The position numbers were made by a program, and so were the translations under genes. Positions 402 through 32,575 of a stretch of DNA of 32,575 nucleotides are shown here, in pieces. The notes under the pieces are model-generated. The model made no database searches. It had not been told where the DNA came from and saw only the letters and a program-made list of their open reading frames with translations. The stretch is from a virus. Within the stretch, counting starts at the first letter, position 1, and each line of letters opens with the position of its first letter. Location of the stretch: positions 1 to 32,575 of IMG/VR virus record IMGVR_UViG_3300003886_000030, one strand, 5' to 3'.

Positions 402-602
402 CTAATCTTCCCCAAGCGCAATAAACTCGCTTACGCTTATGTCAAAATATTTGCAAATATCAATTAAAGCGGAATGTCGAATTGCCCCCCGCCGAATCCA
501 GTTTGATATTAGCTGAGGATTTATTGACATTTCCTCAGCCATATCCCGATGTTTAACTCCCTTTTTAGCTATTGATAATCTCAATGATTTGCTTAAATCC
601 AT
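402..602 (-). CDS. XRE/Cro-like HTH regulator, first gene of replication operon
   Basis: A 66-aa protein starting MDLSKSLRLSIAKKG. A helix-turn-helix of the lambda-repressor/XRE type covers about residues 8-60, with recognition region near INPQLISNWIRRG, and the C-terminus is ISVSEFIALGED. I chose the ATG at 602 because AGAGG lies 7 nt upstream; an ATG at 617 (71 aa) has a weaker site. Its stop lies 2 nt before the initiator ATG, so it occupies the place of cro or cII ahead of O and P. It probably acts on the 20-bp repeats just upstream (646-685), which overlap the -35 region of its own promoter. Whether it is Cro- or CII-like cannot be told from sequence alone. Confidence 0.82.
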   Translation of the reverse strand: MDLSKSLRLSIAKKGVKHRDMAEEMSINPQLISNWIRRGAIRHSALIDICKYFDISVSEFIALGED

Positions 603-19376: not shown

Positions 19377-21323
19377 TCACCTCTCCGGCCTAATCCTTAT
19401 AACGCTTTCTTCGTGCCTTATGCGCACCAAATACCCCACCACACCAGATAAGCCAGCAAATATATCGCTAGCGCTAACGCTGTAGGACGAAGATTCTAAA
19501 GTTAAGCTTTGACTTAAATCAAAACCTAGGTCATTTTCTAAAACCGTAAAACCTGAAGACTCTAAAGTTAAAGTTTGACTTAAATTAAAACCCAAATCAT
19601 TTCCCAGAACTGTGAAACCTGAAGATTCTAGGGTAAAAATTGGTCTTAAATCAAAATCTAAATCATTTCCCAGTACCGCGAAACCTGAAGATTCTATGGT
19701 TAAAGCTGGGCTTAAATCAAAATCTAAATCATTGCTCAGAACTGTAAAGTCTGAAGATTCTAGGGCCAAAAATTGATTTGAACTAAAATTTAAATCATTG
19801 CCTAGAACTGTGAAGCCTGAAGATTCCAAAGTTACACTTTGACTTAAATTAAAACCTAAATCACTACCGAGTAGTGTAAAACCCGTAGACTCTAAAGCTA
19901 CACTTTGTCTAACATTAAAACCAAGATCATTACTCAGAACCGAAAAGCCCGAAGATTCTAGGGCTGCGCTTTGGCTAAAATCAAAACCTAAATCATTCCC
20001 AAGAACCTCAAAACCCGAAGATTCTAAAGCTGCGGTTTGGCTGAAATTAAAGCCCAGATCATTGCCCAGAACCGCAAAGCCCGCAGGCTCTAAAGTTACA
20101 CTTTGGCTTAAATCAAAATCTAAATCATTTCCCAGTACCGTAAAACCCGAAGATTCTATGGTTACACTTTGGCTAAAATCAAAACCTAGGTTATTGGTAA
20201 GAACCGTAAAAACCAAAGATTCTAAAGTTTCACTTTGCTCCCCAATGCTTTCAGCAGCCCCTGTTGAGATAAACGCCGATGGATTATTTTGGTTGTTATA
20301 TGATGTAGCTATTTCAGGTGCAGAAAGAACCTCATTATAGATGCTAAATTCTGACACAGCTCCAGCTAAAAAAGCCACAGGGGAAGACCTGACTAATGCT
20401 GATATTGACGAGCTATCAAGGGTTAATGGGGTAGGTGTGTAATTAAAATCAGTGGCGTCTAAGATGCCGTCGATATAAACATTTACTATACCATTGTTAT
20501 CAACCCATGTCAGTAAGTGATCAGTGCCATCAAAAACAGGTAATGTAGATTTAATGCGGTTTGCACTTACGAAAGAATTGTCCCCGCGAATGTAAGCGGA
20601 TAATTCCGGCCCTAATCCGTCAGCCTCAGTGCCTAAAGTAAAAAGCGGGGTATTACTGGAGGATGAACCCTCACCATATAGCCGCAAATTATCTTGGAAA
20701 TTCGGCACATTAACCCACATTTGAATCGAATAACCAGTTGACTTATGCGCCAATGCTGAGTTAATAGTCAAATAATCATTAACGCCATCAAATTCTAAAC
20801 CATTGCCAATTTTTCCAGCAATTAAATCATTGCTTGCCATTCCCCCGTTAGAAGTGTAATGATTTCCAGACCCAGATGAGTCAATCATTTGTGGAGCGCC
20901 GCCAGAAGGGTCTTGCTCTAAATGTAAGCTACAAATTCGATTCGGCCTATAAACATTAAAGCGGCCATATAAATCACCGGCAGCATAAGCACTTAATAGC
21001 GAACTTCCGTACTCAACATAAAACCTAGTATCAACGAGCGATGATAATAACCACCCAGCCCCACTAATCCATATTTGACATTCACCATCGCCTGCCCCTA
21101 AAGCGCTATCAGGGGTAATTGAGACAACTTCGAAAGCAAGCTCATTTGTTTGATCGTCATTTTGATATACACGGGTATTTGCCGCTGTAATTCTTTTAGA
21201 ATTCGTAGGATCAAAAGCGCTATCTGGGAAATTTGCGCGTGACAACAGAACGGGCATATACGTGATATCGGCGACAACCTGTGTCGCTAAAATATCAAGC
21301 GGTAACCTATGCGTATTCGCCAC
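19377..21323 (-). CDS. LamG tail fibre / receptor-binding protein with 22-aa repeats
   Basis: 648 aa from a GTG at 21323, 6 nt after the preceding stop. Residues about 20-125 resemble the DUF2341-type module (FPVLL..., VYQNDD..NELAFEV, WISGAGWLLSS, FYVEYG). Residues about 130-345 form a LamG/concanavalin-type jelly roll (GLEFDGVNDYLTI, YSIQMWVNVP, VNVYIDG, AGAVSEFSIYNEVLSAPEI). Residues 368-609 are eleven tandem 22-residue repeats, then a tail SDIFAGLSGVVGYLVRIR. DUF2341-LamG pairs are typical of carbohydrate-binding phage fibres. No head-binding domain like the P22 tailspike is seen, and the gene lies upstream of terminase, unlike P22. It is probably the host-recognition or decoration protein. 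Confidence 0.75.
   Translation of the reverse strand: MANTHRLPLDILATQVVADITYMPVLLSRANFPDSAFDPTNSKRITAANTRVYQNDDQTNELAFEVVSITPDSALGAGDGECQIWISGAGWLLSSLVDTRFYVEYGSSLLSAYAAGDLYGRFNVYRPNRICSLHLEQDPSGGAPQMIDSSGSGNHYTSNGGMASNDLIAGKIGNGLEFDGVNDYLTINSALAHKSTGYSIQMWVNVPNFQDNLRLYGEGSSSSNTPLFTLGTEADGLGPELSAYIRGDNSFVSANRIKSTLPVFDGTDHLLTWVDNNGIVNVYIDGILDATDFNYTPTPLTLDSSSISALVRSSPVAFLAGAVSEFSIYNEVLSAPEIATSYNNQNNPSAFISTGAAESIGEQSETLESLVFTVLTNNLGFDFSQSVTIESSGFTVLGNDLDFDLSQSVTLEPAGFAVLGNDLGFNFSQTAALESSGFEVLGNDLGFDFSQSAALESSGFSVLSNDLGFNVRQSVALESTGFTLLGSDLGFNLSQSVTLESSGFTVLGNDLNFSSNQFLALESSDFTVLSNDLDFDLSPALTIESSGFAVLGNDLDFDLRPIFTLESSGFTVLGNDLGFNLSQTLTLESSGFTVLENDLGFDLSQSLTLESSSYSVSASDIFAGLSGVVGYLVRIRHEESVIRIRPER
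19497..20222 (-). repeat. Eleven 66-bp tandem repeats in the fibre gene
   Basis: The unit ESSGFTVLGNDLGFDLSQSV plus two residues is repeated eleven times with exact 22-residue spacing and no indels; a decayed twelfth (ESSSYSVSASD) follows. Invariant positions are E1, F5, L8, D11 (except N in the first copy) and F14. Variation is mostly at positions 6, 9, 13 and 15-21. Exact 66-bp spacing allows slippage or unequal recombination without frameshift, so copy number may vary between phages. Confidence 0.9.
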
Positions 21324-23008: not shown

Positions 23009-24138
23009 TTTCTCGCCTCAAAATCTATTAGCCATCGCTCTGCATTTTCTTCAGTAGCGTTAAACTCCTTAATGACGCACTCAATTAAAAGCTCTCGATC
23101 TGGTGAGGGAATAACCCGTTTTTCTTTTGCTTTAATCGGGCCAGTAATCCCGAGTTCATTTTCTTCTGCATTACCCTTGGCTTCTTTAGATTTATCCTGC
23201 TTAACTCCTTCTTTTTTGATAAAGGTTTTATCGTGACTGGCAATCTTAGCGGCTGCAAACTTCCGCTTTTCTTCTGCAAATTTTTCTTTCTCGCCTTCCA
23301 AGTTAGCGCGCTCTTTTTCCGCTTCAATCTCGATTTCATCTGACCTTCTTTTTGACTCCTGAATGTCAAGATTAATCTTATCCTCCCTCTCTTTAACAAG
23401 CTTTTCTTGCTCAATCCTTTCAGCGTCGAGTTTATCTTGAGCAGCTTTTGCAATCTTAACCGCTTCTTTTAGCCTTTTATTTTCCGCTTCAATTTTAGCG
23501 CGCTCAACCTCGAGCTTTTCTTTTTCTGCCTTATCATTTGCTTCCTTTTCTAGCCTATCCTTCTCCTCTTTGGCGGCCTCCTCGGTCTTTAAAAGTACCG
23601 CGTGTGCAATTGATTCCGAAACCTCCTTCTCCGCATGCGTCGCTTCGATTAAAAATTCTTGGAAATTTTCATACGTGAAATTGATATTACTTAGCTTATC
23701 TCCTAATTCATTTAGCTCCGTTAAATTCAGGTAGCTTATAGACGAATTTAATGCGCGAACTTCCGAAACTTTCGCCATCAAAGAGTCTATCCGTTCTTTT
23801 TCGATCCGGTCTTTTTTAGCTTTAATTCTGGCTTCCTCGTCGTCAATAACTCTTTTCTTTTCCTTTAGCTCTAACTCAAGCGGCCCAATCATTCCTTGTA
23901 CTCTTGCCGCCTCTTTTTCAATATGACCTACAACCTCAGATTTGAATAGTTTCCTCCGCTTTTCAACTTTCACCCTTAAAGAAACAAGCTCGGCAATACC
24001 TTTTTTAATCTTGGTATAGCCATCTTTTGTTTCTGCATTTAACCCGCTATACGTCTCGACTATTTCTGCGATTGTCGAGTCAGTTACGTTGTAGTTGATC
24101 AGTTTTTTATTTAGCAATTCACCGCTTAATTCCTTCAT
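23005..24138 (-). CDS. Coiled-coil DUF1351-like recombination-module protein
   Basis: 377 aa. Residues about 1-130 (TIAEIVETYSGL, KDGYTKIKKGIAELVSLR, VEKRRKLFKSE, IEKERI) match my recollection of DUF1351-type proteins that accompany phage exonuclease/annealing systems. Residues about 180-300 are an uninterrupted charged coiled coil (KEEKDRLEKEANDKAEKEKL and onward). A C-terminal part SPDRELLIECVIKEFNATEENAERWL may bind a partner. It lies downstream of the YqaJ nuclease in the same coupled operon. Function in the family is not settled; a role as accessory to recombination is inferred. Confidence 0.65.
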   Translation of the reverse strand: MKELSGELLNKKLINYNVTDSTIAEIVETYSGLNAETKDGYTKIKKGIAELVSLRVKVEKRRKLFKSEVVGHIEKEAARVQGMIGPLELELKEKKRVIDDEEARIKAKKDRIEKERIDSLMAKVSEVRALNSSISYLNLTELNELGDKLSNINFTYENFQEFLIEATHAEKEVSESIAHAVLLKTEEAAKEEKDRLEKEANDKAEKEKLEVERAKIEAENKRLKEAVKIAKAAQDKLDAERIEQEKLVKEREDKINLDIQESKRRSDEIEIEAEKERANLEGEKEKFAEEKRKFAAAKIASHDKTFIKKEGVKQDKSKEAKGNAEENELGITGPIKAKEKRVIPSPDRELLIECVIKEFNATEENAERWLIDFEARK

Positions 24139-24758
24139 TAATTCACCCTCGCTTTTGAAATAAAGGCGCCCAATGTTGTTGGATTAAAATTACCTTCTTC
24201 AAAATATCTTTCTTTAGTCCTTAGGCCGAAGTTTATGGTCACGCTTATAGCCATATCACTCATAAATGAAATATTAACTATCGACTCGCCCTCTAAAAAT
24301 CTAGAGAAAATGAATTCCCTTATAAATCTATCTTTCACTTTATCTTCATAAACGCTAACATTTTCTTTCGTTTTAACACCCCTCTTATTATATCTTTTTA
24401 AAAAAGAGTCGATGCTCTTTTTTATATCTGCATCATTTTTAATTGTAAACCTAGAAATCTTACCGTCACGTTCAAGGGTTATTTCATGATCACCCAGCCA
24501 GCTTACTTGAGTTGAAACAAGCTCGCAATCATCTCTTAAGTTTTCCAATATATAAGCCTCGAAAAGAAACTGGCGTTCATGTACTTTTTGCTTACCATCT
24601 AATTCATAATCTCTTTTTTCTAGCTTGAAATTTACGCCTCCATCATTTGCATCTGGACATATGCGCAAGTCTTTTATAATTTTATCTAAAAGCTCTTGGT
24701 AACGCTCACCGTCAATGCTGCCCTCTTCTTGAGGATAATTATCTAACTGTGTATTCAT
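24138..24758 (-). CDS. Hypothetical recombination-module protein
   Basis: 206 aa, mixed alpha/beta, with an acidic N-terminus and no recognisable motif. Features: LDKIIKDLRICPDANDGG, KQKVHERQFLFEAYILENL, a central LGDHEITLERDGKISRFTIK and an end NFNPTTLGAFISKARVN. It is tied by 4-bp overlaps to both neighbours. The operon has a lambda-type nuclease but no obvious annealing protein, so this protein or the next upstream one might supply that role; nothing in the sequence proves it. Confidence 0.6.
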   Translation of the reverse strand: MNTQLDNYPQEEGSIDGERYQELLDKIIKDLRICPDANDGGVNFKLEKRDYELDGKQKVHERQFLFEAYILENLRDDCELVSTQVSWLGDHEITLERDGKISRFTIKNDADIKKSIDSFLKRYNKRGVKTKENVSVYEDKVKDRFIREFIFSRFLEGESIVNISFMSDMAISVTINFGLRTKERYFEEGNFNPTTLGAFISKARVN

Positions 24759-25456
24759 TTTTCACACCCCATTAATTCATTTTCTTTAGCTTCGTATTCA
24801 AGTTGAAACTTTTCATAATCATCTTTATTTAAATTCTCACCCAAATTTAACGCTTCATTAAGCTCCCGCATATCTATTGATGCCTTTATTGCCGCCAATG
24901 CTTGCGCTAATTCCTTGCTCCCTAGGCTTTTAATTTTACGCGCGTAAATTCCTCTAGCTCTTTTTAAATCGTCGCCGACAAACGATTTAGCTTTAACAGC
25001 AAGATCTTCCATGTCATCATAATCATTTGCGATCTCAATGTCTGACTCAAAAGTTGACAGCAGATAATTAATAATCGGGACTATGACGTATGTCACTATC
25101 TTGTGCCTTGACTCTTTAACCACAACTTCTCTTGTTTCAGTTATTCCGCTCATTGCGGAAATCCTGATTCCTCCTGCCTTTTTCCCGGCCCATAGAACAT
25201 CTTCTGAGCAGTAGATTGTCATGCTATGACCGACCCAAGCGGAACTTAATGTCCCCCAAATTATAGCCATAACCCGCCTCATTCCTTTGCAAGGTTTAAA
25301 TGGCTGATAATCCCCCTCCAAAAAAACCGAGACGGGCTGATCCTGTCTGGGCTTCACGGTCACACTATTAATTTTCACCGTGATACCATCGCCAATCAAA
25401 TCAGCAGCGTTTAACTGATCTGACTTTGCCATTATTGTCTGGCTAATGTCATCCAT
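24755..25456 (-). CDS. Conserved phage protein beside the YqaJ nuclease, possible ssDNA-binding partner
   Basis: 233 aa from the ATG at 25456, which shares its A with the nuclease stop (TGATG) and has GGAG 8 nt upstream. The N-terminal 130 residues are beta-rich with a recurring phage pattern: MAKSDQLNAADLIGDGITVKI, FLEGDYQPFKPCKGMRRVM, WVGHSMTIYCS and WAGKKAGGIRISAMS. The C-terminal part is helical (LKRARGIYARKIKSLGSKEL) and ends acidic (EAKENELMGCEK), as single-strand-binding proteins often do. I recall this family as a fellow traveller of phage nucleases; function is unproved. An OB-like or annealing role is inferred. Confidence 0.65.
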   Translation of the reverse strand: MDDISQTIMAKSDQLNAADLIGDGITVKINSVTVKPRQDQPVSVFLEGDYQPFKPCKGMRRVMAIIWGTLSSAWVGHSMTIYCSEDVLWAGKKAGGIRISAMSGITETREVVVKESRHKIVTYVIVPIINYLLSTFESDIEIANDYDDMEDLAVKAKSFVGDDLKRARGIYARKIKSLGSKELAQALAAIKASIDMRELNEALNLGENLNKDDYEKFQLEYEAKENELMGCEK

Positions 25457-26166
25457 CAAGTTATCTCCTCACTATCGCCAAAAATAAGGTCTATTTTCTC
25501 TAAAGATATATCGCAAATTTTTTGAAGGCTTTCGCTAACTTCCGCTTTCGATAAAGATAAAAATTCCTTAACTTCTTTTACCGCCAATTCCGCCGATTCG
25601 GATATTTTTCTAATCATTTCTTCGTCTCTTTTTACAGTGTAAATCACTAGCGGCATCGGTGTGTATTGCGGGCAATAAGAGATAAAATCCCAAGAATCAA
25701 ATCCGAAAACCCACATCCCACCTTGGACTTGCGGGTTATGATCTTTGTGAATCCCCCCTGCCAAAATATATCTCAAATGCTGCTTCGGCGCTGGACATTT
25801 AATCTCTAGACCTCTTTTAATTGCCTCAATTAATCCGTCGGGACTCGCTGATATTGTTCGCCGCTCATCGAGATAACCAAGCCCAACCGTTTTTACTTTG
25901 TGCCCCGTCTCTAGCTCATAGGCAGCTAGTCCGTCCGACTCCAGCAAATTACCGCGTTGAACGTCATCAGAGTTGAGTTTAAGTGAGGTTATTCCGCTCG
26001 CTTGTTCAGCAACAACGTCTAAGATGTAGCTTTCCCGCGTCTTGCTGGGGGCGCCTCCTTTGCCGTTTGTTGTGAGTGCTCTTGATCTACTCATAGTGAT
26101 GCATCCGCGCCTTGCGTCATGCCATTCTTTTTCACCCTGAATCATCTTTTCTAAAATTATTGTCAT
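25456..26166 (-). CDS. YqaJ/lambda-Exo family 5'-3' exonuclease
   Basis: 236 aa with the full motif set. QGEKEWHDARRGCITMS at 10-26 is the N-terminal W...R.G..T.S element. E76 in GNLLESDGLAAYE follows. D110 in SPDGL and E121-x-K123 in LEIKCP make the PD-(D/E)XK active site. QVQGGMWVFG at 146-155 is the QxxG/QVQ element. It resects double-strand ends in phage homologous recombination, useful for concatemer formation before packaging. GTG-free ATG start, coupled by 4 bp to the 84-aa gene upstream. The annealing partner is not obvious nearby. Confidence 0.9.
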   Translation of the reverse strand: MTIILEKMIQGEKEWHDARRGCITMSRSRALTTNGKGGAPSKTRESYILDVVAEQASGITSLKLNSDDVQRGNLLESDGLAAYELETGHKVKTVGLGYLDERRTISASPDGLIEAIKRGLEIKCPAPKQHLRYILAGGIHKDHNPQVQGGMWVFGFDSWDFISYCPQYTPMPLVIYTVKRDEEMIRKISESAELAVKEVKEFLSLSKAEVSESLQKICDISLEKIDLIFGDSEEIT

Positions 26167-26417
26167 CTTTTTTCGTCCTTATCTTGATTGATTTTATCGA
26201 TCGCATAACTGTCAGCGTCGAGTATGATTAGTCTAGTAACTTTATTGACAATGGCGCTTGACAAGTCATTGGGTTCGCCTCTTTCTACACCTTTGATCAA
26301 ATCTAAAACTAAAAGCCGGATTGACTCGTTTTCCGCTATTTCGTGCATGGCGTCAACCAAATCTAATTCTTCCAGCGATTCAATGTACTCATCCTTGTAA
26401 TCAGTGAAATCGGTCAT
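26163..26417 (-). CDS. Small acidic hypothetical protein
   Basis: 84 aa, strongly acidic and helical, starting MTDFTDYKDEYIESLEELDL and ending KINQDKDEKR. It is coupled by 4-bp overlaps to the pentapeptide gene and the nuclease gene. No family recognised. Small acidic proteins at this place may act as host nuclease inhibitors (DNA mimicry, as lambda Gam-type functions), but no motif shows this. Confidence 0.6.
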   Translation of the reverse strand: MTDFTDYKDEYIESLEELDLVDAMHEIAENESIRLLVLDLIKGVERGEPNDLSSAIVNKVTRLIILDADSYAIDKINQDKDEKR

Positions 26418-26983
26418 TTCGGCCTTACCTTTTGAATAATTTCATCGATTTGAATTATCGCGTCACCCATGATATCGTCAAAAGTATCTGGTTTGTCTGA
26501 CAAGTAGAATTTCCCCGCCGCTTTTTCTATTTCATCCGGCCAAATACCAATAACCCTAATATCTCTCCACTCTGTTTCGTACAAATCGGCTCCACTCCAT
26601 TTGGCGTTAGTTAATTCCGATCCGTTGAATTTAGCGCCCCTAAAATTTCCGCCACGCAAATCAGCATCTTTCAGGTTCCTCCCCTGTAAATCTGCAAATC
26701 GTAAGTCAATTGATTTTAATACCGCGACCTCAAGGCAAACTTTAAAAGATTCGCAGTCAAACGAGAAAATAACCGTGCCATTCGCCCAATTCATTATTTG
26801 ATAAGCTTTAGTTTCTAGCTTACTTTCAAGCCCAAGACTTAGGGAAATCTCATCCTTCAAAAGCTCGCTAAGCAGGCAAAATACCTTTCTTTTCTCGAAT
26901 GCGCTAACAAGCGCCCCGCTGATCACTTTTGACTGTATGTCTAATGCAATTGTAAGATTTTCCGCTTTTGCTGATTTATTCAT
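26414..26983 (-). CDS. Pentapeptide-repeat protein, first gene of the recombination operon
   Basis: 189 aa. Residues about 91-140 are some ten A(D/N)LXX-type pentapeptides (SIDLRFADLQGRNLKDADLR, then GGNFRGAKFNGSEL), forming a short right-handed quadrilateral beta helix. The first 85 residues are a non-repeat helical/beta domain and the C-terminal 45 are acidic. In other proteins such as Qnr and MfpA this fold mimics DNA and binds gyrase; with only about two and a half coils here, that role is open. It is first behind a strong early promoter, with AAGGAAAA upstream of the ATG, so it is made early. Confidence 0.75.
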   Translation of the reverse strand: MNKSAKAENLTIALDIQSKVISGALVSAFEKRKVFCLLSELLKDEISLSLGLESKLETKAYQIMNWANGTVIFSFDCESFKVCLEVAVLKSIDLRFADLQGRNLKDADLRGGNFRGAKFNGSELTNAKWSGADLYETEWRDIRVIGIWPDEIEKAAGKFYLSDKPDTFDDIMGDAIIQIDEIIQKVRPK

Positions 26984-27028
26984 TTCTATATTTTCCTTTT
27001 TTTGGAAGTTTGCTTGCTAGTGAGTTAA

Positions 27029-27057
27029 ACTATACAAGCTTAGGTTGTGGCTGTCAA
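27029..27057 (-). promoter_or_regulatory. Early promoter of the recombination operon
   Basis: Minus strand: perfect -35 TTGACA (27052-27057), 17-bp spacer, -10 TATAGT (27029-27034). It is the best sigma-70 match I found in the window, and sits 46 bases upstream of the pentapeptide-repeat gene. It plays the role of lambda pL. Confidence 0.82.
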
Positions 27058-27163
27058 CGTTAATATTTGCCTTATATTATCTTTTTTGATTCGCTCACTC
27101 CCATCAAAACTCGCTAACTTTTTTGAGCTTTGTGGCTTCGTTCCTAATACATGATTCGCGACG

Positions 27164-27415
27164 TTAAATTGTCTGTCTAATTAATCTTGCTTGCTCGGCT
27201 TTAGCTTTACCGCAAACAATAATTTTTCCGCTGCGATATTGAATATACGCCAAATTGTCATTCCCATGCCCGCAGCAAGCATTTGCAATATCACCCGGTA
27301 GAGTGCCCAAGCAACCGTCGTGCCCATCTTTATTTGCCGGTTTTTTGCACTTACTGCAAAACCCATATTGCCCGTTTCCTGCATTTTCGCTCATATAAGT
27401 TTTTAACACATACAT
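27164..27415 (-). CDS. Cys-rich zinc-ribbon phage protein
   Basis: 83 aa. CSKC at residues 20-23, then DGCLGTLPGDIANACCGHGN and a C-terminal VCGKAKAEQARL give a cysteine/histidine-rich metal-binding protein. The LGTLPG...NACCGHG pattern is one I recall from small uncharacterised phage proteins. The start could be the ATG at 27415 or an internal one at residue 8 (MSENAG); neither has a strong ribosome site. The 100 bases after its stop, up to the early promoter, hold no gene. Confidence 0.72.
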   Translation of the reverse strand: MYVLKTYMSENAGNGQYGFCSKCKKPANKDGHDGCLGTLPGDIANACCGHGNDNLAYIQYRSGKIIVCGKAKAEQARLIRQTI

Positions 27416-27477
27416 TTAAATTATCCACATACTAATCGAAATCTAACAGACAAAATCTAACAAGCGCATATAGCTAA

Positions 27478-27520
27478 TTGCCAGCAGCTCGGCCCCTTTA
27501 AAGTTTTGCATTGCTGGCAA
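27478..27520. terminator. Inverted repeat behind the 113-aa gene
   Basis: TTGCCAGCA (27478-27486) and TGCTGGCAA (27512-27520) are perfect 9-bp complements with a 25-base loop, just after the stop at 27537 on the minus strand. No U-run follows. A related sequence (ACTGGCAACCG..T.CCTTTGT) recurs behind the next gene near 28766. Confidence 0.4.
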
Positions 27521-27536
27521 CGGATTGCCTTTGTTG

Positions 27537-27878
27537 CTATGTGCCTAAAGTTTTCAGCGCAGACCCCATCATTTCATCAAAGCCCGCACCTCCATTGTAA
27601 TATTTAAGCTCAAACAATATTTCTCCGCCTTCTAACCGTTCTGCGGTGGCTATATCATCATTAGGATTCAGATGTTCAACCTCAATTAAATAGATCGTGT
27701 CTTTTCCGATAAAATATTCCCTGCATCCTTCGTCTTTTATTTGCTCAAGGAACGATGTGTACATGTCAGCTTTAAACTCTTTACCTAAAATTCTCAGCAA
27801 ATTCTTTGACGCATTTTCAAGGTTCCCAGCAGCAAATACCGGAATTAACCTTCCTTTACTGTGTTCTGTTTCGCTCAT
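27537..27878 (-). CDS. Hypothetical accessory protein
   Basis: 113 aa, starting MSETEHSKGRLIPVFAAGN and ending MMGSALKTLGT. GGAG lies 9 nt before the ATG. A middle part FIGKDTIYLIEVEHLNPNDD is beta-like. It stands alone with its own flanking inverted repeats. I recognise no family and see no metal-binding or catalytic motif. It may be one of the host-takeover genes common in this part of lambda-like phages. Confidence 0.62.
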   Translation of the reverse strand: MSETEHSKGRLIPVFAAGNLENASKNLLRILGKEFKADMYTSFLEQIKDEGCREYFIGKDTIYLIEVEHLNPNDDIATAERLEGGEILFELKYYNGGAGFDEMMGSALKTLGT

Positions 27879-27922
27879 TTCTTATCACTCCGCAGTAATC
27901 GTAACAAAGAAAATCAAATCGA

Positions 27923-28010
27923 ACAGGACGCAGCGTTTTCTGGCAAGCTCATCACTGTCCTGTCGTTTATTTGTGAAGCTATGCCGCTCTCAGCTTACGC
28001 GTTGAGCGGC
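27923..28010. other. Two inverted repeats between accessory genes
   Basis: ACAGGAC (27923-27929) can pair with GTCCTGT (27957-27963), and GCCGCTC (27983-27989) with GAGCGGC (28004-28010). The second follows the stop of the SPFH-like gene on the minus strand by 8 bases and may end or slow transcription; no U-run is seen. No reading frame lies here. Confidence 0.35.
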
Positions 28011-28017
28011 TATCTTG

Positions 28018-28449
28018 TTATCGTTTGCCAGCTTCTATAATGGGAATCATTGCCTCAGTTGGTATATAAATGACTTGATTAACGTTTCCCTCCCTCAATG
28101 ACTCGCCCAATGCAGTCATAAACTCTTGCTGCCTATATTCGGGGTAAGCTTTTGCCGCCTGACCCATAATTGAAATAGCATCCGCTTTATTCTGAGCAGA
28201 CTCCTTCTCTGCAAGTGAGGTCTGTATCATTATCTGCTTTGTTTGCACTGCCTTAGCAAGCGCCGCCTCACCATCAAGACCCTGCTTCCACACGTTATAA
28301 ACTGGGCTCATGTGTAGCCCGGAAATTAAAACAAAAATAGCTGCAAATCCAAATGCGACTGACATGGCGGTAATTCTTTCTTTCTCGAAAACATGGAGTG
28401 ATCCTATGCAAATTAATATTACTGAAACGACTAAAATGACTGGCCACAT
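28018..28449 (-). CDS. Membrane protein resembling the C-terminal part of SPFH/HflK-type proteins
   Basis: 143 aa. Two membrane helices (about 2-20 and 30-45) are followed by a part that reads like the tail of SPFH (stomatin/prohibitin/HflK) proteins: YNVWKQGLDGEAALAKAVQT, a helix AEKESAQNKADAISIMGQAA, EYRQQEFMTALGESL and the closing GNVNQVIYIPTEAMIPI. The beta-rich SPFH domain that normally precedes this is missing. GAGG lies 8 nt before the ATG. In lambda, the host HflKC-FtsH complex controls CII stability, so a phage mimic could enter and alter such a ring; this is inference. Confidence 0.68.
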   Translation of the reverse strand: MWPVILVVSVILICIGSLHVFEKERITAMSVAFGFAAIFVLISGLHMSPVYNVWKQGLDGEAALAKAVQTKQIMIQTSLAEKESAQNKADAISIMGQAAKAYPEYRQQEFMTALGESLREGNVNQVIYIPTEAMIPIIEAGKR

Positions 28450-28785
28450 AATTTAAACCTCACAATAAAGCGGCATAAAAAGAAATATACAGCCGAACAA
28501 AATGCCGCGTGATTTTGTTCGCTTCCTTAAAGCTCCTCGCTACGATTTACTGCGTAAACAAAATGGTTGTTACCTTAAAACTCTTCAAAAACTTCATTTT
28601 ATTTTAACAGCGTTGATTTTTTATTAGAGGATAAAGTAATCATCCCATTTTCCTCATTATAAAACGTTTTATTTTTTTGGTGATCTGCTTATTTCTTCTA
28701 ACCATTAGGTGATTTATTCATTAGGCTACATCCATTCGTGGCTTTGTTAAAATTTTTCGTTACTGGCAACCGCTTACCTTTGTCG
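28450..28785. other. 336-bp region without a gene; hairpin and palindrome
   Basis: No frame above about 16 codons has a ribosome site. CGAACAAAAT (28494-28503) and ATTTTGTTCG (28512-28521) form a perfect 10-bp stem with an 8-base loop; on the minus strand UAUAUUUCUUUUU follows, so it may be a leaky terminator ahead of the SPFH-like gene. ATAAAACGTTTTAT (28659-28672) is a perfect 14-bp palindrome overlapping a minus-strand TATAAT (28656-28661), a possible operator and -10. The region near 28766 resembles 27510 (see separate finding). Confidence 0.5.
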
Positions 28786-29292
28786 TTATATTGCTAAAAC
28801 AAGTCTCAAAGATTGTAGGTATTTCTCGTTTTTGCCATAAAAAAGACCTTGCAGACCTTTGTAAAAAGAAACTATGTGATCGTGGCTCTTAAATATGGTC
28901 TTAGGCAGGTGATAGGTGTATTTGGCCTCATAATCAAATTCTATTTTTTCGCCGGTAATGTAAAATTCAATTAGCCTTTTAATGATTGTCCGCGATTTGT
29001 CTGCACAGCAAGCGGAACCCTCTTTATTTACAATAAGTTCCTGAAAGTTGTTTTCGATAAATTGCGAATTACGCATTAAAAAAATAACATCCTCATTGTC
29101 AGATATTTCGCTTTGAACAAATCCATCAATAAAATTATCAAACGGATATATAATGGCAAAATAAAATTCTTCATAACCTGTGAACCCGCTTATTTCACTG
29201 CTTTCTATAATTTTTTTGTAAAGATTTTTGTTGTCGTCAGACATGCTACCCTTGAACGCCTCTAAAAAGCCCACCAACTCTGATGTTTCCAT
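28786..29292 (-). CDS. Uncharacterised 168-aa protein in the repressor position
   Basis: 168 aa from the ATG at 29292, chosen for AAGGAA 6 nt upstream. The sequence starts METSELVGFLEAFKGSMSDD and is acidic, rich in Phe and Tyr (EEFYFAIIYPFDNFIDGFV, YEAKYTYHLPKTIF), with a Cys pair ACCADKS near 108-111. I see no helix-turn-helix and no peptidase motif, so it is not a recognisable CI. Yet it is transcribed from the minus-strand member of a matched divergent promoter pair opposite a Cro-like gene, the position of an immunity gene. It may be a novel regulator, an anti-repressor or an exclusion protein. No family recognised. Confidence 0.65.
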   Translation of the reverse strand: METSELVGFLEAFKGSMSDDNKNLYKKIIESSEISGFTGYEEFYFAIIYPFDNFIDGFVQSEISDNEDVIFLMRNSQFIENNFQELIVNKEGSACCADKSRTIIKRLIEFYITGEKIEFDYEAKYTYHLPKTIFKSHDHIVSFYKGLQGLFYGKNEKYLQSLRLVLAI

Positions 29293-29348
29293 TTTAATTT
29301 CCTTGTGTAATTGCCGCAAATATAACAAAGCGAATCAAAGGGGTTAAA

Positions 29349-29370
29349 CTTTACGTACTTTTGCGTAAAG
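29349..29370. promoter_or_regulatory. Inverted repeat in the 5' leader of the 168-aa gene
   Basis: CTTTACG (29349-29355) and CGTAAAG (29364-29370) are perfect complements 8 bp apart, starting right at the predicted start of the minus-strand transcript. It could be an operator half-site pair or an RNA hairpin in the 80-nt leader. Confidence 0.45.
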
Positions 29371-29378
29371 CCAGCGTC

Positions 29379-29407
29379 ATGATACAACTACAAGCTGTGC
29401 CCGTCAA
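29379..29407 (-). promoter_or_regulatory. Divergent promoter, minus-strand member
   Basis: TTGACG (29402-29407), 17-bp spacer, TATCAT (29379-29384). Both boxes are identical to those of the plus-strand promoter 36 bp away, and much of the spacer (ACAGCT, TGTATCAT end) matches too. Drives the 168-aa gene. Confidence 0.78.
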
Positions 29408-29442
29408 TTAGCTGATAGCTTTATTTTAAAATTTATATGGGA

Positions 29443-29471
29443 TTGACGTGTACAGCTGCTGGGTGTATCAT
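29443..29471 (+). promoter_or_regulatory. Divergent promoter, plus-strand member, giving a leaderless Cro mRNA
   Basis: TTGACG (29443-29448), 17-bp spacer, TATCAT (29466-29471). The Cro-like ATG begins at 29478, exactly where transcription should start (7 nt past the -10), so the message is predicted to lack a leader. The TACA...TGTA symmetry in the spacer may be the operator. Confidence 0.78.
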
Positions 29472-29477
29472 TGGAAA

Positions 29478-29687
29478 ATGAATCATTTAAAAAAAGCAGC
29501 ACAAATCACGTCTTTGGCCGAGATTGGCAAAGCATGCGGAGTCACGTATCAAGCAGTACAAAAGTGGATTAAAAATGGAAAATTGCCAAGGACTGAATGG
29601 ACTGGCGAAACCAAATACGCGAAAATAATCGAGCGGTTGACTAATAAGCAAGTAACCGCAAAACAGTTAACAACTAAAAACACTTAA
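29478..29687 (+). CDS. Cro-like (YdaS-type) HTH repressor
   Basis: 69 aa from the ATG at 29478. The helix-turn-helix is clear at about residues 12-31 (SLAEIGKACGVTYQAVQKWI), followed by NGKLPRTEW, as in Cro/YdaS-like proteins that open with a LKKA..I helix. A longer reading from 29448 would start inside the promoter and is rejected. No Shine-Dalgarno fits; the predicted transcript start coincides with the ATG, as in leaderless lambda cI mRNA. It is first in the plus-strand operon that ends with the Tad2-like gene and probably binds the matched elements in the two divergent promoters. Confidence 0.82.
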   Translation: MNHLKKAAQITSLAEIGKACGVTYQAVQKWIKNGKLPRTEWTGETKYAKIIERLTNKQVTAKQLTTKNT

Positions 29688-29713
29688 CACTTCTGGCATA
29701 AGAGTTGACGCGC

Positions 29714-29809
29714 TTTGTTTAGCTACCCTCCCCCGGCTAAACGAAGAATGCAGTCATGTATGCAATATATGGCTTTGCTCCATATATGCTGGCTTTGCTC
29801 CCACCAGCA
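29714..29809 (+). ncRNA. Structured intergenic RNA candidate: three hairpins
   Basis: TTTGTTTAGC (29714-29723) pairs with GCTAAACGAA (29736-29745). Then ATATGG/CCATAT (29767-29785) and TGCTGG/CCAGCA (29787-29809) form two adjacent hairpins whose loops both begin CTTTGCT, with TGGCTTTGCTCC repeated. They sit in the 262-base gap between the Cro-like gene and the next gene. They could be an attenuator, processing site or small RNA. No frame with a ribosome site lies here. Confidence 0.4.
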
Positions 29810-29949
29810 GTGTAAACGGGGGTGCCATTTTTATTTTTTGGATAGTTCCTTGTGAATTATAAAAAACTTGAAAATCACTCTTGCAATCCTCTTTTTAACA
29901 ATCTGTGAACTCTCAGTATTACCTTTTTTAATGTGGATTATTAGCTAAA

Positions 29950-30150
29950 ATGTTAACGCTAACCGAGCTTAGAGCGCAATTTGAAGTAATGGCAGAATTA
30001 AATAAATTCGACGTCGAGCTTGATGAAAATTTTGAATATAAAACAGAGCCAAGAAACACATTTTTGCTCTGGGCTGGCTATTGGGAATGCGCCAAAATTA
30101 ATGGCGTTATCGATAAAAAGTCAATGTGGATTGATGCCGTTGCCAAATAA
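29950..30150 (+). CDS. Small hypothetical phage protein
   Basis: 66 aa: LTLTELRAQFEVMAELNKFD, then a central NTFLLWAGYWECAKINGVID and an end MWIDAVAK. The layout (a short helix, acidic stretch, then NTxLLWAGYWECAK) resembles many small early phage proteins without known role, as I remember them. The ribosome site is weak (GTGGA upstream). It overlaps the next gene by 17 bp in another frame, which suggests tight packing of an operon. Confidence 0.6.
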   Translation: MLTLTELRAQFEVMAELNKFDVELDENFEYKTEPRNTFLLWAGYWECAKINGVIDKKSMWIDAVAK

Positions 30151-30286
30151 ATTAGATATAACATTAATCGTTTCATTGGGATTTATGTTAGCCGCGCTTT
30201 ATTTTAACAGCGGGAGCTGTATTTTTGTTAGTCTTATATTGCTCTTGATTCGCGTTATTTTGGAGATACACTATCAAAAAGAATAA
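30134..30286 (+). CDS. Small two-helix membrane protein
   Basis: 50 aa from the ATG at 30134: MPLPNKLDITLIVSLGFMLA, with hydrophobic segments at about 9-22 and 29-43 and a charged end EIHYQKE. A longer in-frame reading from 30020 only overlaps the previous gene and is not preferred. GTGGA stands 3 nt upstream of the start, a weak site. It overlaps the next gene by 14 bp. No function assigned. Confidence 0.5.
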   Translation: MPLPNKLDITLIVSLGFMLAALYFNSGSCIFVSLILLLIRVILEIHYQKE

Positions 30287-30452
30287 AGAAAAGTTAATCC
30301 GCAGGTTTGAAAAATGGCCGCGAGAATATGCATGCGACATTATCGCGCTCAAAGATCGAGAGCAGATGATTGAGGCCATGAAGCTTGTGCCCGATCACTT
30401 TAAACAAATGGCCGGGCGACATGTTAATTCTATGTTGCGCAAACTTAAATAA
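30273..30452 (+). CDS. Small conserved-looking phage protein with apparent ATC start
   Basis: 59 aa. The body RRFEKWPREYACDIIALKDR, EQMIEAMKLVPDHF and KQMAGRHVNSMLRKLK has the layout of small phage proteins with ...I...R.EM...VP.H....V..HV..... at the end. In this frame a stop lies at 30246, and no ATG, GTG or TTG occurs until 30366, inside the protein. GGAG (30262-30265) stands exactly 7 nt before ATC at 30273, so ATC may be the start; otherwise the ribosome would have to shift from the overlapping membrane-protein frame. It is 13 bp ahead of the Tad2-like gene. A sequencing error is the third option. Confidence 0.6.
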   Translation: MKKNKEKLIRRFEKWPREYACDIIALKDREQMIEAMKLVPDHFKQMAGRHVNSMLRKLK

Positions 30453-30465
30453 AATGGAGATAAAA

Positions 30466-30951
30466 ATGAGCGGTAAAGTAAAGGGAAACCAATTTAACCT
30501 ATTAGATAATACAGAGCTATATATTGGCACTAAAACTTCTATGGCAAAAGAGATGAATAGAGCTGATTATAACAGGTTTCGTGGCTGGAGCTTACCGGAC
30601 AATGAAGACGGTAATGATAATGGGTATATCGTACAATATGCTAATGGTTATGTGTCGTGGAGTCCAGCAGATCAGTTTAATGAGGCGTACAAAAAGACTA
30701 GTGGGTTAAGTTTTGGCTTAGCCATAGACGCGATGAAAAAAGGAAAAGCAGCAAGGCGATTAGGGTGGAACGGAATAGGAATTTTTATCGGCATCCAATA
30801 TCCGTCAAATCTTAGCAAGATGACATCCCCGTATCTATTTATCGACACTACGGGGCTTAAGACGTCAAATGAAGACGCCCCAAAAAGCTTAGTTCCATGG
30901 CTAGCGTCTCAAACCGACATGCTGTCAACTGACTGGGTAATACTGGACTAA
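30466..30951 (+). CDS. tad2: Tad2-like (DUF2829) anti-Thoeris protein
   Basis: 161 aa from the ATG at 30466 (GGAG 6 nt upstream). Residues 80-161 are the DUF2829 domain: LSFGLAIDAMKKGKAARRLGWNG, PYLFIDTTG and VPWLASQTDMLSTDWVIL. An extra N-terminal domain (1-75; IGTKTSMAKEMNRADYNRF, RGWSLP, YANGYVSWSP) is one I recall from longer phage DUF2829 proteins. Tad2 proteins are known to bind and sequester the signal nucleotide made by Thoeris, so that the effector is not triggered. The gene is last in the Cro-led operon and ends at a terminator. The symbol is by domain only; ligand binding is untested. Confidence 0.82.
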   Translation: MSGKVKGNQFNLLDNTELYIGTKTSMAKEMNRADYNRFRGWSLPDNEDGNDNGYIVQYANGYVSWSPADQFNEAYKKTSGLSFGLAIDAMKKGKAARRLGWNGIGIFIGIQYPSNLSKMTSPYLFIDTTGLKTSNEDAPKSLVPWLASQTDMLSTDWVILD

Positions 30952-30961
30952 ATTAGCGCCC

Positions 30962-31000
30962 GGCTATTCTCATCCATTATTTTTTTGGCTGAGAATAGCC
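30962..31000 (+). terminator. Terminator of the Cro-Tad2 operon
   Basis: GGCTATTCTCA (30962-30972) and TGAGAATAGCC (30990-31000) form a perfect 11-bp stem with a 17-base T-rich loop, followed by TTTATT. It lies 10 bases after the Tad2-like stop and just before the end of the convergent minus-strand gene at 31019, so it may work on both. Confidence 0.78.
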
Positions 31001-31018
31001 TTTATTCGAGAATATCAG

Positions 31019-31198
31019 TTAATTTTCAAAAATTTCACGACCGCAAAAACAGCAAAATTTCATATTATGACCTCTTGGACTGCCTTCTTCCAAGTAAAAA
31101 TTTTCCTGACAATCTGTCAAATAGCTCCCTCTATTTTCGTCTTCAATTGATGACTCTTTAACCCATTTGCATTGAGTTTTTTCGCTTAATTTTTCCAT
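31019..31198 (-). CDS. Small zinc-ribbon phage protein (59 aa)
   Basis: 59 aa, starting MEKLSEKTQCKWVKESSIED. A cysteine at 10, then TDCQENFYLEEGSPRG and MKFCCFCGREIFEN, give a metal-binding CxxC ribbon (about 47-50) with paired cysteines near 10 and 29. The pattern W...T.C...F.LE.G.P....MKFCP(Y/F)CGK is very common in small early phage proteins. GGGAA lies 6 nt before the ATG at 31198. It is last of the O-P operon. Role unknown; such ribbons often contact nucleic acid or protein. Confidence 0.8.
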   Translation of the reverse strand: MEKLSEKTQCKWVKESSIEDENRGSYLTDCQENFYLEEGSPRGHNMKFCCFCGREIFEN

Positions 31199-31235
31199 TT
31201 CTATTTCCCAGTTTAATTTTACAGGCGGAGAATAG

Positions 31236-31448
31236 CTAATATTGTTTTTTTACAAAATCTCGATAAATTGTTACTGAGCAATCGCTATTGTGCTTACTAT
31301 CCGAGCAGCCGCAAAATAAACACTCTGCATTTGCTCCCGCATAAGGCTGAATCATGCAGTTTAGAATGTGATCATTGCATATTTCCAATAACCCACTGAT
31401 AACCCCGTCTTTTAATTTCATCTCATTAGTCATATTCAAATTTCCCAT
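31236..31448 (-). CDS. Small Cys/His-rich protein in the replication operon
   Basis: 70 aa. AECLFCGCSDSKHNSDCSVT near the C-terminus is a CxxC...H...C metal site of the type seen in small phage proteins; an upstream helix carries GVISGLLEICNDHILNC. AAGGAA stands 6 nt before the ATG at 31448, within a 17-base sequence also found at the start of the 168-aa gene (29290-29306). It follows the helicase loader by 14 bp. Function unknown. Confidence 0.75.
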   Translation of the reverse strand: MGNLNMTNEMKLKDGVISGLLEICNDHILNCMIQPYAGANAECLFCGCSDSKHNSDCSVTIYRDFVKKQY

Positions 31449-31462
31449 TTTAATTTCCTTGT

Positions 31463-32122
31463 TTAATTTACGCCGTTTATTGCGGCTCTAACCTTCGCTA
31501 TCCGGCCGCTTAACTTAGCATCATCACTAACGCTTGACGTGGACAGTAGTTTTGATATAGCCCGCCCGCTGTCGCTTATATCTGAGGCTGGGTGGGCTAA
31601 CACATATTTCTGGCTAATTTTTTTGCTTTTAAAGGCGTCGTTTACGGCTGCGCTCCTTTTTTGCTCGTCCGAGCCCAGAGATACCGACCACCGAGCTGGC
31701 TTTAGTTCTTTTCGCGCCTGCTCGACTAACGATAAGTAAATCTCCCTAAAGGCCATTTTTGCGCCCTGCTTGTCTTTAGCCTTTAGAATTTCCTGTGCAA
31801 GAAAAAACGCTTCAGAGGTTTCTTCTGTCCAAACAACAGTTTCAGACTCGCATCTGGATTTAAGCGCCATTGCCCACGCTTCATTTTCCCCCGGACGACC
31901 GTCCATTTTCATCAAAAATTCGATTATATCCGCTGGTTTAGGGGTGAATTTCGATGTCTTTTCGTGTTGACTTAAGGCTTTCAAGACTAACGGCAAGGGA
32001 TAGGGCTTAAGCGACGCCCACCATCGCTTCATTGCGGTATCGCTAACTGATGCCCGGTAATCAATAACTTCAACAACAGCTTTTAACTCAGCTTCAAATT
32101 TTTTATACTCGTCGCCTGTCAT
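31463..32122 (-). CDS. Lambda P-like helicase loader
   Basis: 219 aa directly after the initiator, overlapping it by 4 bp. The N-terminal half has the pattern of phage replicative helicase loaders of the P type: VSDTAMKRWWASLKPYPLPLVLKALSQHEK then KFTPKPADIIEFL. The C-terminal part is helical with MAFREIYLSLVEQARKEL. There is no Walker A motif, so it is not DnaC/AAA-like. P-type proteins bring host DnaB to O at the origin. The assignment rests on gene order and this pattern. Confidence 0.78.
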   Translation of the reverse strand: MTGDEYKKFEAELKAVVEVIDYRASVSDTAMKRWWASLKPYPLPLVLKALSQHEKTSKFTPKPADIIEFLMKMDGRPGENEAWAMALKSRCESETVVWTEETSEAFFLAQEILKAKDKQGAKMAFREIYLSLVEQARKELKPARWSVSLGSDEQKRSAAVNDAFKSKKISQKYVLAHPASDISDSGRAISKLLSTSSVSDDAKLSGRIAKVRAAINGVN

Positions 32123-32575
32123 TTTTCAACTTCCCCGTTTATATAATTTCCATCAAAATCATCACGCGCCCAGTCAGGGATTTCGCTGTTATCAATTCCG
32201 GTGGATTTTGTTGATTTATCCGACTCACTCATCCATTCGCATTTAAAGCCCCGCCACCCGCTCGACTCGGCCTTGGCAATGCAAACGGACACGGTAAAGC
32301 CTAAGTCTACGGCTAGGTGCAATTCCTTCCCCGTGGTGTCAATTGCTGACTGACTTATCGACCCCTTGTTACGCTTTTTCATGATTAACCAATCTTTTAG
32401 CAGTTTTTCGTCTGGCTTTTCAGGCCAAGAATCAAAATTTAGTTTTTTAATATTTTTAGGCTTGATCTTTTTTGTCTCTGTCTCTGTCTCTGTCTCTGTC
32501 TCTGTCTCTGTCTCTGTCTCTGTCTCTGTCTCTGTCTCTGTCTCTGTCTCTAGAGGATCACATTGATATCGACCT
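32119..32575 (-). CDS. O-like replication initiator, C-terminal part
   Basis: Continuation of the gene that starts at 399; 32485-32575 repeats the left end. After the Glu-Thr linker the sequence KKIKPKNIKKLNFDSWPEKP, LLKDWLIMKKRNKGSISQSA, LAVDLGFTVSVCIAKAESS and GWRGFKCEWM is the typical C-terminal domain of phage O-like and DnaT-like replication proteins (W...P...L.DW...RK..K...S...I), expected to contact the helicase loader. It ends 3 nt into the P-like gene. The in-frame join was checked by codon phase across the junction. Confidence 0.85.
   Translation of the reverse strand, partial: GRYQCDPLETETETETETETETETETETETETETKKIKPKNIKKLNFDSWPEKPDEKLLKDWLIMKKRNKGSISQSAIDTTGKELHLAVDLGFTVSVCIAKAESSGWRGFKCEWMSESDKSTKSTGIDNSEIPDWARDDFDGNYINGEVEK
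32473..32550. repeat. (TGTCTC)13 microsatellite
   Basis: Thirteen perfect 6-bp units in the circular map (eleven of them repeated at 1-66). On the coding minus strand the unit is GAGACA, giving Glu-Thr 13 times in the initiator. The 6-bp period preserves the frame whenever units are gained or lost. No interruption is present, which suggests recent slippage or selection for uniformity. Confidence 0.95.

Follow-up and report, generated by a model that had tools for sequence, protein, structure and literature searches.

The window analyzed here is an entire IMG/VR virus record (32,575 bases). It carries two facing promoters with identical boxes and similar spacers, and a third promoter of the same layout lies upstream of recombination genes. 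From the sequence, we consider it fairly likely that the small Cro-like protein P0001 serves as a Cro-only early shutoff of all three promoters through operators in their spacers, with no opposing CI of the lambda type.

Two facing promoters share their boxes and a candidate operator

A preliminary description of this DNA had reported TTGACG-17-TATCAT on both strands, and both occurrences were confirmed, at 29407-29379 (-) and 29443-29471 (+). The plus-strand promoter (PR-like) precedes the gene for P0001 (69 amino acids; 29478-29687, +), whose start codon lies 6 nt past the -10 box, and its spacer holds the candidate operator ACAGCTGCTGGGTGT at 29452-29466. The minus-strand promoter precedes the gene for P0002 (168 amino acids; 28786-29292, -) and, at 29398-29384, holds the candidate operator ACAGCTTGTAGTTGT in a matching register. 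These are the only two occurrences in the window (0.03 expected), they lie on opposite strands, and none of 100 shuffles held two. The two spacers also have in common ACAGCT and, just ahead of TATCAT, a TG, as had been noticed earlier; a promoter scan rejected this TG as a TGn "extended -10" element. The earlier view of the promoters as inverted copies of one 28-bp element was right about the inversion, with 23/29 positions identical, and wrong about the length, which is 29 bp. Together, the promoter arms form 30-nt inverted repeats, 80% complementary, with 33 nt between them. No third copy was found in the window at up to 3 mismatches to the 20 common bases, and the exact 20-base pattern had 0 matches in viral contigs. 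Judged by sequence, both promoters look like good sigma-70 promoters (boxes 10/12), and neither resembles a PRM that is weak and depends on an activator.

For the P0002 message, the predicted leader is ~80 nt long and not unusually stable in its fold (z, -0.33). Within it lies a perfect 7-bp inverted repeat, CTTTACG-8-CGTAAAG (29349-29370), possibly a hairpin or the site of a second protein. The P0002 RBS and start region (29286-29312) recurs at 31442-31468 (93% over 27 bp), where the copy marks the start of the 31448-31236 (-) gene. The dyad AGCTGATAGCT at 29411-29421, picked out by eye, was weighed as a middle operator, but its match to the family site is poor and we make no such claim.

The operator register recurs in relatives of the Cro-like gene

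Viral contigs yielded 44 relatives of P0001, of which 41 were used; L021 and L028 were left out for want of upstream sequence, and L039 because it nearly duplicates L037. A scorable promoter (at least 8/12) was present in 36, and no 8/12 promoter was found for L027, L035, L036, L037, and L043. A per-locus dyad search proved too noisy and was replaced by an anchored average over relatives. Mean odd-centered dyad symmetry over the 36 relatives had its maximum at -7 relative to the -10 box (0.36), a modest peak next to -6 (0.35) and the other centers listed (0.23 to 0.33); the window's own best dyad center is likewise -7 (0.67). Between their boxes, the relatives' cro promoters typically have a dyad of the type GTAACTNNNGGTTC; the window has ACAGCTgctgGGTGT (+) and ACAGCTtgtaGTTGT (-). 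The dyad at 29443 is the poorest of the window's operators, with 2 mismatches to ACAAC-N5-GTTGT. The distance from the -10 box to the start codon, 6 nt in the window, is 5 to 8 nt in 25/36 relatives. An operator, with its dyad centered 7 nt upstream of the -10 box, is the best reading of the letters common to the two spacers. The promoter, the operator register, and the probable leaderless start look like traits of the Cro family, and the cro (P0001) message is probably leaderless. Good sigma-70 boxes in both, and probably one operator placed in one register in each, may explain why the two facing promoters are so alike.

The idea that a matched pair is itself a usual trait of the Cro family was rejected, since none of the 36 scored relatives has one. 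On their divergent side, the best inverted copies of the cro promoter were 19/29 (L044; T/A-rich, with 5/200 shuffles as good) and 18/30 (L016; 0/200 shuffles as good) versus 23/29 here, and the boxes of the inverted copies reached at most 7/12 in any scored relative versus 10/12 here. The pair had been described as unlike lambda; it is also unlike these relatives, which lack a full copy of the promoter on the divergent side.

A third promoter of the same layout precedes recombination genes

The best sigma-70 match within 24000-32575 is TTGACA-17-TATAGT at 27057-27029 (-), a PL-like promoter whose spacer holds ACAACctaagCTTGT; its candidate operator, ACAACCTAAGCTTGT, stands in the same register as those of the facing pair. 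Downstream lie a pentapeptide-repeat gene (26983-26414) and, further on, a YqaJ-type exonuclease gene. A search of viral contigs found no viral relatives of the exonuclease or of the 24755 protein. We scored the window with a combined consensus of sigma-70 boxes plus ACAAC-N5-GTTGT (maximum, 22), picked after the window had been inspected. The three sites scored 19, 18, and 17 of 22, a score of 17 was reached in 0/200 shuffles, and no other site in the window reached 16/22.

Relatives with the same recognition helix point to P0001

To lessen the circularity of a consensus chosen after the window had been viewed, the relatives' promoters were used as queries: the 36 relatives' own cro promoters, with spacers normalized to 17, were scanned against the window. 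The cro promoters of L031 and L045 ranked the three window sites highest of the 36, and these are the two relatives that have the recognition-helix sequence of P0001, QAVQKWI (within residues 24 to 33, YQAVQKWIKN, of the model). L018, whose helix reads QAVRKWE, is a close third and ranks the three sites nearly as well. On this helix-operator match, P0001 is the probable repressor of all three promoters. The available part of one report (PMC4488713) cites common rules that connect Cro recognition helices with operator half-sites. The pattern TTGACN5CARCN5GTTGTAN3T occurs in at least 119 stretches of viral contigs; a Cro/CI-type HTH frame lies within ~600 bases of 5 of the 80 stretches listed (of at least 119) versus 1/444 controls (12 bits). 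Among the 5 are the L045 contig and two stretches identical to each other. The preliminary description had one protein binding both promoters; the spacer letters behave as a family operator, and the Cro-like 29478 product at both promoters appears to be the best reading.

The operators might instead belong to another regulator, such as the HTH protein encoded at 402-602 (-), with P0001 either no binder or one of two proteins binding in the manner of CI and Cro. Such a second HTH gene is indeed present (small, Cro/C1-type, 66 amino acids; HTH_26, 1.1e-5), and lambdoid phages have two regulators with common operators, as stated in the available part of PMC8630535. We nonetheless think this unlikely: no site of at least 16/22 exists beyond the three, and thus none upstream of 402-602, and the QAVQKWI helix match favors P0001. 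The 402-602 gene is directly ahead of an O-like replication gene, and upstream of it a 20-bp direct repeat (TACGAATAGATTGCAACAAA; 2.4 copies) occupies 645-692. These repeats are perhaps operators of its own.

Two observations would suit a coincidence of two good sigma-70 promoters with chance spacer likeness and no operator. Promoter-like sites as a class are at chance level in the region (22 found versus 21.4 expected), and the operator by itself occurs in the window about as often as expected (10 versus 9.7). Unlike promoter-like sites as a class, however, the matched pair is above chance. The joint pattern appeared in 0/100 and 0/200 shuffles, the register is common to relatives, the third site lies at a plausible promoter, and the helix-matched relatives rank 1 and 2 of 36; a coincidence is therefore distinctly unlikely.

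P0001 resembles Cro, and P0002 shows no sign of being a regulator

By profile and predicted fold, P0001 belongs to the Cro family of lambdoid phages. It matches phrog_35 (7.6e-13) and is ~41 to 44% identical to annotated 933W-type Cro proteins in tblastn searches; the Pfam families YdaS and P22_Cro fall below their cutoffs, and its sequence has no match in the PDB at an E value of ≤1. The AlphaFold2 model (pLDDT, 89.2) is nearest the Cro proteins of Xfaso 1, N15, and P22. Its best fold match is Xfaso 1 Cro (Foldseek; TM, 0.70 to 0.76; E value, 4.7e-3), with N15 Cro (6on0) and 2hin among the top matches, although the E values are weak. As in the family, candidate operators overlap P0001's own promoter and the divergent one.

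P0002 (phrog_32020; function unknown) occupies the usual slot of CI. Its conserved motifs are EGxxCCADKSRT and YTYHLPK, in which EG..C.ADK is invariant. Searches of Pfam, NCBIfam, and PADLOC placed it in no family and gave no HTH or S24 match, and its model (pLDDT, 84.8) had no match at an E value of ≤0.001 among PDB and viral folds. On these grounds, P0002 was rejected as a CI homologue. Its homologues (13 plasmid records, 10 genome loci, and 10 viral loci) sit in unrelated neighborhoods; no facing Cro-like gene was seen in the 4 plasmid regions viewed or, by eye, among 15 listed of the 20 loci L067 to L086. The family has no Pfam model, and relatives occur on plasmids, phages, and bacterial contigs. 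As a query on its own, P0002 found no relatives in viral contigs and no match in annotated phages at an E value of ≤1. Among the 57 loci L003 to L059, records for 31 were searched for phrog_32020 and none had it (0/31), in a search in which no positive control gave a signal.

These results bear on whether the locus is a true two-way lysis-lysogeny switch, in which P0002 would be an unrecognized CI replacement opposing P0001 at the same operators. P0002 does occupy the position of CI relative to cro, and its promoter holds the same candidate operator. Against this, neither an HTH nor another family match was found for P0002, nor a fold match, its homologues on plasmids, genomes, and phages have no facing Cro in the loci viewed, and the record has no PF00589 integrase or S24 domain. 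We regard this as very improbable, the least probable of the readings weighed here: with P0002 showing no sign of a regulator, the locus does not appear to be a two-way toggle. The "symmetrical switch" proposed earlier is not supported either. The left gene bears no regulator sign in HTH family, fold, or homologue neighborhoods; a leader of ~80 nt with a possible hairpin is predicted for the left mRNA, the right one being probably leaderless; and a third promoter has the same layout.

The record is probably a near-complete circular map

The two ends of the record, 1-91 and 32485-32575, are identical over 91 bp, a repeat made of a TGTCTC hexamer array (11 to 13 copies) plus 24 unrepeated bases. 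The array encodes a Thr-Glu run within the O-like replication gene (phrog_678), and a minus-strand reading frame enters it from both record ends. Although IMG/VR classes the record as linear, its map is probably circular, opened at this repeat, and near complete, a completeness that rests on the 91-bp end overlap. It includes a P22-like portal gene (PF16510). Family searches found no PF00589 integrase and no PF00717 (S24) peptidase in the record, and we infer that the phage lacks a lysogenic repressor. Rfam and tRNA scans gave no matches, and P0001 was found in 0/13 terminase-related records. A 66-bp tandem repeat (x11; 19488-20237) lies inside the large gene 21323-19377 (-) and encodes runs like LESSGFTVLGNDLGFDLSQS.

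The strand that encodes P0001 carries, downstream of it, a gene for a protein with a Tad2-like (anti-Thoeris-like) domain (30385-30951, +; PF11195, 3.4e-18; phrog_872). The domain makes up only the C-terminal part (residues 109 to 186); the N-terminal part matches phrog_9467 and phrog_32732 (function unknown).

A proposed early shutoff and its meaning

In the mechanism that we propose, a P0001 dimer would bind an ~15-bp dyad (ACARC-N5-GTTGT-like) between the -35 and -10 boxes of three or more early promoters: that of its own gene (29443, +), that of P0002 (29407, -), and that of the recombination genes (27057, -). Upon infection, all three promoters would be active. Translated from an mRNA that is probably leaderless, P0001 would build up and then turn off all three, its own included, and this negative feedback would yield an early pulse, with no opposing CI recognized. 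That the locus has only one recognized DNA-binding product, and that the promoters would be repressed together, argues for a shutoff and not a toggle.

If P0001 does act in this way, the role of Cro would be separable from its usual CI partner, and the phage would be a naturally occurring case in which Cro could be tested as a pulse generator working alone. From the way helix and operator go together in the relatives comes a specific and cheap binding prediction, and the locus would put P0002 (function unknown) under early phage control beside an anti-defense-like gene. A more speculative reading, which we put forward tentatively and hold to be doubtful, is that a CI-less phage that has kept Cro and its operators has rewired an immunity region into a one-protein early-gene timer, in which the PRM slot has become a second full-strength promoter and the Tad2-like gene, P0002, and the recombination genes share one pulse. 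In its boldest form, P0002 would be a counterdefense protein freed in the pulse, and a lysogeny switch would have become a counterdefense switch. In the literature searched, no report turned up of a CI-less Cro with matched divergent promoters, or of a Cro-only regulon that has them.

Comparison with known systems

In a lambda-type switch, a CI-type repressor gene faces cro, and a weak, repressor-activated PRM lies beside a strong PR. Here, the facing product, P0002, is without HTH or S24, the record has no PF00717, and the two promoters, by sequence, have the same boxes (10/12). One trait of such switches, operators at the leftward early promoter (PL), is represented at 27057-27029 (-). Aca-type autorepressors of anti-CRISPR operons are small HTH proteins that repress their own operon. 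Their operons include an anti-defense-like gene, a possible parallel to P0001 and the Tad2-like gene downstream of it; P0001, by contrast, is of the Cro family by profile and is the first gene product of its putative operon.

The 933W-type/lambdoid cI-PRM-OR-PR-cro regions (Escherichia phage 1H12, Salmonella phage MG40, and Providencia phage PSTNGR2lys), whose Cro proteins are those ~41 to 44% identical to P0001, are alike in having operators in the cro promoter and a divergent gene across from cro. They differ in that a CI-type repressor faces cro (3/3 named phages viewed), where the window has P0002, and in that CII and O genes follow cro, where the Tad2-like gene follows P0001; the O-like gene of the window is elsewhere, with its own HTH gene. 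The absence of a divergent cro-promoter copy is a finding on the 36 scored viral-contig relatives.

The Cro proteins of the telomere phages PY54, N15, and phiKO2 have a Cro-type fold in common with P0001. According to the available part of PMC4488713, highly active promoters of PY54 give cI and cro messages that lack leaders, and PY54 Cro recognizes one operator and is not autorepressing. The predicted leaderless cro message of the window is thus like that of PY54, as far as that part of the report describes it, whereas the operator-like site here lies in P0001's own promoter and in two others. In cryptic prophage CP-933P, the Cro-like YdaS acts together with a second repressor, and repeats lie at both promoters and at PL (PMC8630535, available part). 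YdaS/PaaR2 therefore parallels the window in having a Cro-like protein at a divergent promoter pair with repeats also at PL; on the same partial account, two DNA-binding regulators face each other in CP-933P, whereas one HTH gene is recognized at the window locus. Set beside these systems, the locus is, on its sequence, a modified form of a familiar type of switch and not a type of its own, with matched divergent promoters that are absent from the 36 scored relatives.
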